Shown here one piece after another: positions 27,594 through 29,487 of a stretch of DNA of 32,008 bases. The stretch is from NCBI GenBank assembly GCA_003228585.1, contig QIEJ01000241.1, forward strand, positions 1 to 32,008, read 5' to 3'. This DNA is from Pseudomonadota bacterium. GTDB taxonomy: Bacteria; BMS3Abin14. Every line of letters starts with the position of its first letter. Position 1 is the stretch's first letter. The position numbers were made by a program, and so were the translations under genes. The notes beneath the pieces were generated by a model that was not told the origin of the DNA, searched no databases, and worked only from the letters and a program-made list of their open reading frames with translations.

Positions 27594-27670
27594 GGCGGTG
27601 TAGCTCAGGTGGTTAGAGCATGCGGCTCATATCCGCAGTGTCCGGGGTTCAAGTCCCTGCACCGCCACCA
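27594..27670 (+). tRNA. tRNA with CAT anticodon (elongator Met, or Ile2 if lysidine-modified)
   Basis: GGCGGTG acceptor, GCTC..GAGC D-arm, TGCGG-CTCATAT-CCGCA anticodon arm (CAT at 27628-27630), CGGGGTTCAAGTCCCTG T-arm, CACCGCC acceptor, encoded CCA. Confidence 0.95.
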
Positions 27671-27672
27671 AC
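27636..27672 (+). repeat. attL-like direct repeat (3' portion of the tRNA gene)
   Basis: CAGTGTCCGGGGTTCAAGTCCCTGCACCGCCACCAAC, identical to 29407-29443. Confidence 0.92.
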
Positions 27673-27752: not shown

Positions 27753-27754
27753 AT

Positions 27755-27777
27755 ATGACACAAGTATGACACAAAAC
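27755..27777 (+). repeat. Left subterminal repeat, possible integrase arm-type sites
   Basis: ATGACACAAGTATGACACAAAAC, two ATGACACAA units 11 bp apart. Confidence 0.6.
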
Positions 27778-27819
27778 CATGATAGCCGAAGGGTGGATAT
27801 TTGCGAACAGAAAGGCACC

Positions 27820-27880: not shown

Positions 27881-28315
27881 ATGGGATACACCAAGGGTTC
27901 TGGAAAAAAGGGCACTAGTAGTAAGAAGGCTGCTGGTACCAAAAAGGCTGCTGGACCAAAAAAAGATGATGATTCAGTACCTGTCAGCATCATCCCTGTT
28001 CTTTCGAAGGATCAAAAGCCTGCATATGCGAACCACTTGAACATCAGCCATTCACACAACGATTTTCTGCTTGCCTTTTCCAACGTACAGCCAGCCATAC
28101 TGTCAGAAAAAGAACGCGAGCGCTTGGAAGCAACCGGTGAGTTGGTGATAGACCCCACGGCTACGGTTGTAGTACCAGTAACAATAATGTCTAAAATCAT
28201 CGATGCAATGATTGATAATTACACTCGGTATTTGGTAACTAACCGCGATAACATTAAATTAAGCGACTCAGATATAGCCATACTAGAAGAAATTGATAAA
28301 CGGAGTAATAAATAG
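27881..28315 (+). CDS. DUF3467-like protein with Lys/Ala-rich N-terminal tail
   Basis: RBS aagggggaagg; YANHLNISHSHNDFLLAFSNVQP...ATVVVPVTIMSKIIDAMIDNYTRYL matches the DUF3467 pattern; N-terminal KKGTSSKKAAGTKKAAGPKK. Confidence 0.7.
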   Translation: MGYTKGSGKKGTSSKKAAGTKKAAGPKKDDDSVPVSIIPVLSKDQKPAYANHLNISHSHNDFLLAFSNVQPAILSEKERERLEATGELVIDPTATVVVPVTIMSKIIDAMIDNYTRYLVTNRDNIKLSDSDIAILEEIDKRSNK

Positions 28316-28912
28316 ATGGCTGAGCCCGTAAAAAAAGTAGTTCGGATTGAAAATTTTGTAGAAGCCACCCACAAAAAAAAAGGCAAAATGGCTGCCGGAT
28401 GGAAAATTCCTGTTGGTATAATTGACAGCAGTAGTGGGGTAGCATCATCATTTATCTCAGCTGACAGTTGGGTTACTGATTTGGAATTGGAAAGTGCACC
28501 TTCAGCAAGACCTTATTCAATTTCTTCTGGAGAGGTTTCAGATAAAGACTTTTCTACTAGAGTGACCTTTTATGGTGCGCTTAGGGGACGCGCGCTCTCC
28601 AGGTCTTTTGCCTCTACGGTTGAAAGTGAACCTCTCACCACATCCCGAATTGTTCCTATCAATTCCCTGGGCAAAAACGGGGTTTCACTTAAACGGCCCA
28701 TTCATGTTGAGGTGCTCGAAGAAGAGGATGGTGTTACTGCCTCGTTCAGCGATGTTAATCTGTATGGTTTCGGGAAGACTGAAACGGCCGCACTCAATAT
28801 GCTTCGAGAGCAAATTGTGTGCCTCTATGAAAAAGTAAACTCTGAAGAAAAACTGGGTCCACTCCCAAGGCAGTGGAAAGTTATCCTGGGTGAGCTCATC
28901 GAGGCCAAATGA
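28316..28912 (+). CDS. Hypothetical protein, C-terminal HicB-like fold (candidate antitoxin)
   Basis: Abuts previous stop (TAGATG); C-terminus IHVEVLEEEDGVTASFSDVNLYGFGKTETAALNMLREQIVCLYEKV follows the HicB pattern. Confidence 0.65.
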   Translation: MAEPVKKVVRIENFVEATHKKKGKMAAGWKIPVGIIDSSSGVASSFISADSWVTDLELESAPSARPYSISSGEVSDKDFSTRVTFYGALRGRALSRSFASTVESEPLTTSRIVPINSLGKNGVSLKRPIHVEVLEEEDGVTASFSDVNLYGFGKTETAALNMLREQIVCLYEKVNSEEKLGPLPRQWKVILGELIEAK

Positions 28913-29226
28913 GTTCCACTGTTTATAAAACCCAAGAAATCAGGAGAGCACTTGAAAAGGCGGAAGCAGATCCTGGGCAGGCTGAAAAGACAGGTTTTGT
29001 TATAACTGGATCTAAACACATCAAGGCTGAATTTTTTTATAAAGGTGAGTGGATACTATCAACTTATGTTGCGCATTCAAAAGGCGATCTTCCACCTGGA
29101 ACGCAGAACAAAATTAGAAAACAACTTGAGCTGAATAGACCAGAGTTCGGAGATTTTATTGGATGTCCAATGAAGCTTCCAGGATTAGTCCAAACTTGGA
29201 AAGATAGCGAAGTGATTAAGGAATAG
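28909..29226 (+). CDS. HicA-like small protein (candidate toxin)
   Basis: ATGA overlap with upstream gene; GFVITGSKHIKAEFFYKGEWILSTYVAHSKGDLPPGTQNKIRKQLEL resembles HicA G-S-x-H ... kkdlpkGTlrkIlkql. Confidence 0.65.
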   Translation: MSSTVYKTQEIRRALEKAEADPGQAEKTGFVITGSKHIKAEFFYKGEWILSTYVAHSKGDLPPGTQNKIRKQLELNRPEFGDFIGCPMKLPGLVQTWKDSEVIKE

Positions 29227-29240
29227 TGACAATCTTTAAC

Positions 29241-29263
29241 GCGGGCTCCGGCCCGCTTTTTCT
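29241..29263 (+). terminator. Intrinsic terminator after the three-gene operon
   Basis: GCGGGC-TCCG-GCCCGC-TTTTTC. Confidence 0.88.
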
Positions 29264-29338
29264 TTGTCTTGACACCCCCCCCCCTGATTCCCCCTGGGCC
29301 TTTCCCTTAGGGAGGTCGTGGACGGGAAAGTGGTGACT

Positions 29339-29359
29339 ATGACACAAGTACGACAAAAC
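29339..29359 (+). repeat. Right subterminal repeat, possible integrase arm-type sites
   Basis: ATGACACAAGTACGACAAAAC, near copy of 27755-27777 in the same orientation. Confidence 0.6.
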
Positions 29360-29406
29360 AGCACAGGTGACAGGAAAAAGAGTTGATATGTCAACTGCTT
29401 AGTGCC

Positions 29407-29443
29407 CAGTGTCCGGGGTTCAAGTCCCTGCACCGCCACCAAC
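29407..29443 (+). repeat. attR-like direct repeat (tRNA 3' fragment)
   Basis: CAGTGTCCGGGGTTCAAGTCCCTGCACCGCCACCAAC, identical to 27636-27672; not a complete tRNA. Confidence 0.92.
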
Positions 29444-29446
29444 TAT

Positions 29447-29474
29447 AAAAAAGCTCCCGGTCGGGAGCTTTTTT
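29447..29474. terminator. Strong intrinsic terminator, probably the original tRNA terminator
   Basis: AAAAAAGCTCCCG-GT-CGGGAGCTTTTTT immediately after the tRNA 3' fragment. Confidence 0.88.
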
Positions 29475-29487
29475 ATGGTTGTTCTGT

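Follow-up and report, generated by a model that had tools for sequence, protein, structure and literature searches.

A putative three-gene HicBA-type toxin-antitoxin module as the entire cargo of a mini-island in a tRNA-Met gene

The window, i.e. the complete 32,008-nucleotide stretch of DNA analyzed here (contig QIEJ01000241.1 of the Pseudomonadota assembly GCA_003228585.1, denoted G000), harbors a three-gene operon which makes up the whole cargo of a 1771-bp (~1.8 kb) integrase-less island located between perfect 37-bp direct repeats at a tRNA-Met gene. On balance, and judged from sequence comparisons, the operon probably encodes a tripartite type II toxin-antitoxin system of the HicBA superfamily with a Class-8-type HicA, in which the first protein (ORF1) would act on an extension of the antitoxin (ORF2). 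The module is a variant of HicBA and not a new kind of system. The role of the operon as full island cargo is the main context missed by the original prediction, which had proposed a new DUF3467-like, HicB-like and HicA-like trio on a minimal island; the island itself turned out to be better founded than claimed there.

Anatomy of the island and mobility

The insertion site is a tRNA-Met gene (CAT; 27594-27670, plus strand) recognized by ARAGORN, the 3′ end of which is supplied by the island-side repeat. The attL-like copy of the perfect 37-bp direct repeat (27636-27672, plus strand) comprises this tRNA 3′ end, and the attR-like copy (29407-29443, plus strand) follows at a spacing of 1771 bp; in shuffled flanks the longest repeat was 11 bp. 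At the left repeat the tRNA-Met gene is complete, whereas the right copy is a 3′ tRNA fragment with a strong hairpin (29440-29481, plus strand) immediately behind it, presumably the original tRNA-Met terminator. Elements integrated into tRNA genes normally have this layout. The three ORFs are the only convincing genes between the repeats, and the GC content inside the island is 42-46% compared with 51-57% in most of the flanks. The hairpin search also returned an intrinsic-terminator-like stem after ORF3 (29241-29256, plus strand).

Comparison of repeats within the island revealed a further pair, the left one (TATGACACAAGTATGACACAAAACCA, 27754-27779, plus strand) being a candidate arm-type site of an integrase and the right one (29338-29363, plus strand) 85% identical to it. 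Copies of TATGACACAAGTATGACACAA lie near both island ends (85% over 26 nt); no other copy was found in G000 or in the 11 other family members, the sample of 12 genomes of one family (including G000) being at the same time the sample for the phylum. An exact 21-bp copy of TATGACACAAGTATGACACAA occurs once in the viral collection, a short way behind an endolysin gene and ahead of a chemotaxis-receptor-like gene (L097:5197-5217), probably near a prophage end. This location fits TATGACACAAGTATGACACAA as an integrase arm-type site, as a single case. The tRNA 37-mer had no match in the viral contigs.

No integrase is encoded within the island. The island has no resident integrase, because the only tyrosine recombinases of G000 (an assembly of 276 contigs, 98% complete) are XerC and XerD, as assigned by context and sequence, xerC being located in a trmFO-xerC-hslVU context. 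Neither a resident nor a tandem ICE or IME was found. Cis-mobilizable elements (CIMEs) are defined by att-like sites together with the lack of integrase and transfer genes (PMC5704250). The window island resembles them in that its att-like sites, located in a tRNA 3′ end, are retained and integrase and transfer genes are lacking, and differs from them in its size of only 1.8 kb and in the lack of a detectable resident or tandem ICE or IME.

A second candidate for an integrase-less mini-island was observed in one of the related loci described below (L086:5616-7399), where the DUF3467-type trio of L029 is located between 36-nt direct repeats (35/36 identical) at a spacing of 1748 bp. The right repeat copy covers the region where a creatininase-family gene starts, and the repeat-bounded stretch contains a truncated-looking phd-like ORF and no integrase. 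Around L085, L087, L089, L091, L092 and L094-L096 no att-like repeats beyond chance were detected. Two trios with a TIGR04255 first gene (L090:4893-6572 and L091:6748-8434) are positioned directly downstream of tandem tRNA-Ser genes, with no convincing repeat of the tRNA-Ser 3′ end downstream.

The three proteins of the operon

ORF1 (27881-28315), ORF2 (28316-28912) and ORF3 (28909-29226) are all located on the plus strand and tightly coupled, ORF1 and ORF2 abutting in TAGATG and ORF2 and ORF3 overlapping in ATGA, with the antitoxin candidate encoded before the toxin candidate. Coordinates, junctions and gene order agree in every detail with the original prediction. A ribosome-binding-like GGGGGAAGG lies upstream of ORF1, and a search for sigma-70 promoters gave no match above chance.

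ORF3 (105 aa) is the HicA-like toxin candidate. As a single sequence it matches Pfam HicA_toxin below the gathering score (E=0.0073) and the toxin family PHROG 353 with 5e-5. A family of 16 sequences, collected by iterating through distant relatives, yields a profile which aligns with eight canonical HicAs in hhalign at a probability of 97 (E 1e-10), and the profile built without canonical HicA still finds the canonical HicA of HicAB pairs (2e-5 for L031; 9e-8). His37 and Cys86 are invariant in the family alignment (16/16). The histidine occupies a GSxH-like position, which we take to be the catalytic position of HicA. In the same alignment ORF3 and its Class-8-sized relatives are alike in length and have in common a conserved C...Y..iL segment C-terminal to the dsRBD. 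The AF2 model computed without an alignment (pLDDT 47) is too poor to assign a fold; its H-E-E-E-H-H topology is HicA-compatible and does not constitute evidence, and Foldseek searches with this model returned noise only. By profile comparison ORF3 is a member of the HicA superfamily, as had been predicted, and a probable, putative RNA-cutting toxin.

ORF2 (198 aa), the antitoxin candidate, consists of a variable N-terminal extension (residues ~1-120) and a C-terminal HicB-like domain (~125-198). The single sequence does not match HicB in Pfam directly, the only hit being DUF7387 (E=0.018). With family profiles the assignment of the C-terminal ~80 residues as a HicB-like domain is solid: the C-terminal family aligns with canonical HicB in hhalign (probability 92.5, E about 5e-7), and the partner proteins of every aligned locus match residues ~125-198 of ORF2 with their C-termini, their N-terminal extensions being strongly different between loci. 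Against the PDB the same profile gave weak matches throughout (3k6q, E 0.013; 2yzt, 0.4; the HicB 6g1c, 1.0), and an alignment-free AF2 model (pLDDT 33) is too poor to confirm the fold. The original prediction of HicA and HicB folds for ORF3 and the ORF2 C-terminus, respectively, is thus borne out by profile comparison. No HTH, RHH or other DNA-binding domain was matched by ORF2 in Pfam, its N-terminal extension being without a family assignment; HicBs of Classes 7 and 8 are likewise described as devoid of a DNA-binding domain in Gerdes 2024 (PMC10865869).

ORF1 (144 aa) is well supported as a divergent DUF3467 protein at the level of profiles, which upholds its earlier assignment. The Pfam match to DUF3467 (PF11950) has an E-value of 0.0033 and 17.9 bits versus a cut-off of 25; a DUF3467 profile scores 16.9 bits, a value reached by none of 1000 shuffled sequences, and hhalign gives a probability of 83.9 (E 7.8e-6). 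The motif AYANHLNISHSHNDFLLAF of ORF1 has its counterpart in GTYSNLAIITHSPAEFVLDF of canonical DUF3467. The N-terminus, formerly called histone-tail-like, is indeed rich in Lys and Ala, but it is just a low-complexity tail absent from the first genes of the relatives.

Canonical DUF3467 is common, occurring in 137 of 386 genomes from many families and mostly in single copy. None was found in G000 at E 0.001; 7 of the 11 other family members, unlike G000, possess one. A partnership of canonical DUF3467 with HicA was considered and rejected, as no HicA-like ORF is found near 30 canonical DUF3467 genes. An identity of ORF1 with SecB likewise has no sequence support in Pfam, and the canonical DUF3467 profile has no PDB match. 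The literature search returned no paper joining DUF3467 with HicA and none mentioning TIGR04255.

Relatives and comparison with known systems

Searches with ORF1, ORF2 and ORF3 as single sequences found no homologues in genome contigs, viral contigs, plasmids or phages. The module is real and modular. The order DUF3467-like, HicB-like, HicA-like is found in the window and in L013 and L029, two genomes of another phylum, and perhaps in L011, which amounts to three confirmed DUF3467-type trios. The co-conservation of the trio anticipated by the original prediction is therefore observed, and its recurrence across phyla suggests a little-known three-part variant of HicAB. L013 and L029 have first genes that are clearly homologues of one another and modestly DUF3467-like (1/1000 and 5/1000 shuffles scoring as high, respectively; 0/40 shuffled profiles for the profile of the pair). 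The first gene of L011 was rejected as DUF3467 since 91/1000 shuffles score as high, and that of L004 shows no similarity.

In L030, L076 and L077 the first position is instead occupied by a TIGR04255 gene, recognized by a family match in L030 (E 7e-31) and by evident similarity in the other two. Other first genes are without a family match (L004, and L081 with a 206-aa protein), and in L080 and L075 a hicBA pair has no recognizable first partner gene. The L075 pair, from a genome of the same family as G000 (L084:4163-7313), is located between two direct transposase copies and its first gene is missing. Thus the ORF1-type family is not obligatory, several relatives having no first gene or another one. 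Where a first gene is present it is closely coupled in several cases, by a 4-bp overlap in L011 and by overlaps in L004, L030 and L081. In all ten loci examined the GC content of the operon is lower than that of the locus (10/10).

Large HicBs with extra domains fused to them are found in L012, L027, L070, L078 and L079, L070 being a Geminocystis plasmid with a HicB of 356 aa and a HicA of 95 aa. L027 (1965-3258) corresponds to gp38/gp37 of Methanocaldococcus fervens tailed virus 1 (MFTV1), an archaeal tailed virus, and this pair, annotated as hypothetical, has the look of a Class-8-type HicB/HicA.

In the survey of Gerdes 2024 (PMC10865869), hicBA classes 1-10 are described as bicistronic, and the HicB of Class 8 as a protein of 331-356 aa with three domains, the HicB fold being C-terminal, next to a HicA of ~95 aa which carries two additional small helices at its C-terminus. 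DUF3467 is absent from the main text of this survey, the DUF matches there being DUF1902. The window module shares with Class 8, as described there, the position of hicB before hicA, a HicA that appears to extend past the dsRBD and the HicB fold at the antitoxin C-terminus; L070, L012, L078, L079 and MFTV1 gp38/gp37 resemble Class 8 as well, and one profile joins all of them to ORF3. By sequence, ORF3 would be placed in the longer, ~95-aa HicA lineage called Class 8 in that survey. Contrary to the described Class 8 HicBs, ORF2 is only 198 aa long and bears a single short extension, and the pair is preceded by a separate DUF3467-like gene. The claim of a distinct new system is therefore retained in part: the architecture is a new variant, but the HicA lineage has already been described as Class 8 (PMC10865869) and the first gene varies.

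With canonical HicAB (HicA_toxin PF07927, HicB PF15919) the module has homologous toxin and antitoxin domains and the histidine at the catalytic position in common, whereas ORF3 carries a C-terminal extension with the invariant Cys86, the gene order is reversed, the HicB domain is located at the ORF2 C-terminus and no HTH or RHH is detected. TAC systems, in which SecB-like chaperones serve the antitoxins HigA, MqsA and HicB via an extension (PMC5105189), are similar in having three genes, a variable antitoxin extension and one gene that is a specialized homologue of a widespread protein. The defining traits of TAC are resemblance to SecB and an extended antitoxin C-terminus, which confers chaperone addiction. 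Here, in contrast, the first genes show no similarity to SecB in Pfam, the partner gene comes first instead of last, and the extension of ORF2 is N-terminal.

Proposed mode of action and alternatives

On the basis of homology and the conserved histidine, ORF3 would act as a HicA-type ribonuclease which, in analogy to HicAB, would be sequestered by the C-terminal HicB-like domain of ORF2. ORF1 may bind the N-terminal extension of ORF2 and keep the antitoxin folded or competent, neutralization thereby being permitted or withdrawn. Loss or titration of ORF1 or ORF2, caused by an infecting phage or by the island being lost, would free HicA, RNA would be degraded and growth would stop. A tyrosine integrase provided in trans may have inserted the island, or the island may have lost an integrase of its own. 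ORF1 is regarded as a component because of its tight coupling, the presence of another family in the same slot and the additional domains that Class 8 HicBs carry as fusions; swapped first genes together with such fusions are to be expected of a slot for a functional partner. Phage defence is plausible by analogy with the HicA literature in Gerdes 2024 (PMC10865869), and addiction to the island would be an equally simple benefit.

It is rather doubtful that ORF2 and ORF3 suffice as a two-component hicBA with ORF1 as a passenger or an independent regulator outside neutralization. The L080 and L075 pairs lack a recognizable first partner gene and the Class 8 loci described in PMC10865869 are two-gene, as such a pair would have it, yet several loci show close coupling of the first gene, through TAGATG in the window and through the overlaps of L011, L004, L030 and L081, DUF3467-like or TIGR04255 genes keep recurring in the first slot, L075 has a transposase in place of the first gene, and the extra domains described for Class 8 are fused to HicB. 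A more specific form of the tripartite explanation, so that the degrees of confidence given here are not exclusive, would make ORF1 a dedicated chaperone which folds or protects the antitoxin via its extension, as in chaperone addiction. Canonical DUF3467 is widespread (137/386 genomes) and in most cases single-copy, and a specialized version of it beside an antitoxin with a variable extension would suit this (cf. PMC5105189); since no first gene matches SecB in Pfam, the ORF2 extension is N-terminal instead of C-terminal and the gene order differs, we judge it unlikely.

Two further alternatives concern the island. The module might merely stabilize the mini-island without a role in defence, which is possible though far from favored: the trio is the sole cargo between the repeats, and a HipAB module has been reported to stabilize a composite genomic island (PMC8978831), but most loci of the relatives lie outside recognizable islands and the third component would be left without explanation. 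That the island is instead the decayed remnant of an originally larger element that lost its integrase and most genes by deletion, the module being possibly inactive, appears improbable. With att-like repeats and no integrase it does conform to what defines a CIME (PMC5704250), yet none of the three ORFs is disrupted, active-site histidine and coupling are preserved, and the repeat-bounded trio of L086 has nearly the same size (1748 versus 1771 bp), which argues against chance decay.

Beyond the tripartite system favored for the window, a broader scheme can be put forward only tentatively, namely a modular three-part HicBA family whose first protein is interchangeable (DUF3467-like, TIGR04255 or another type, with fused domains in its stead in Class 8) and would be the trigger sensor of the antitoxin. 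Such a family might spread as self-contained units of ~1.75 kb, which lack an integrase, rely on borrowed ones and integrate at tRNA genes or at the starts of genes. The longer HicA lineage comes in several architectures, which are here brought into one modular scheme. DUF3467 and TIGR04255, families which are widespread or sporadic and without an assigned function, gain a testable context as possible partners of HicB-type antitoxins. Finally, a toxin-antitoxin operon as the entire cargo of a 1.8-kb integrase-less island, together with a second candidate case of nearly equal size, makes the existence of trans-mobilized mini-islands testable.
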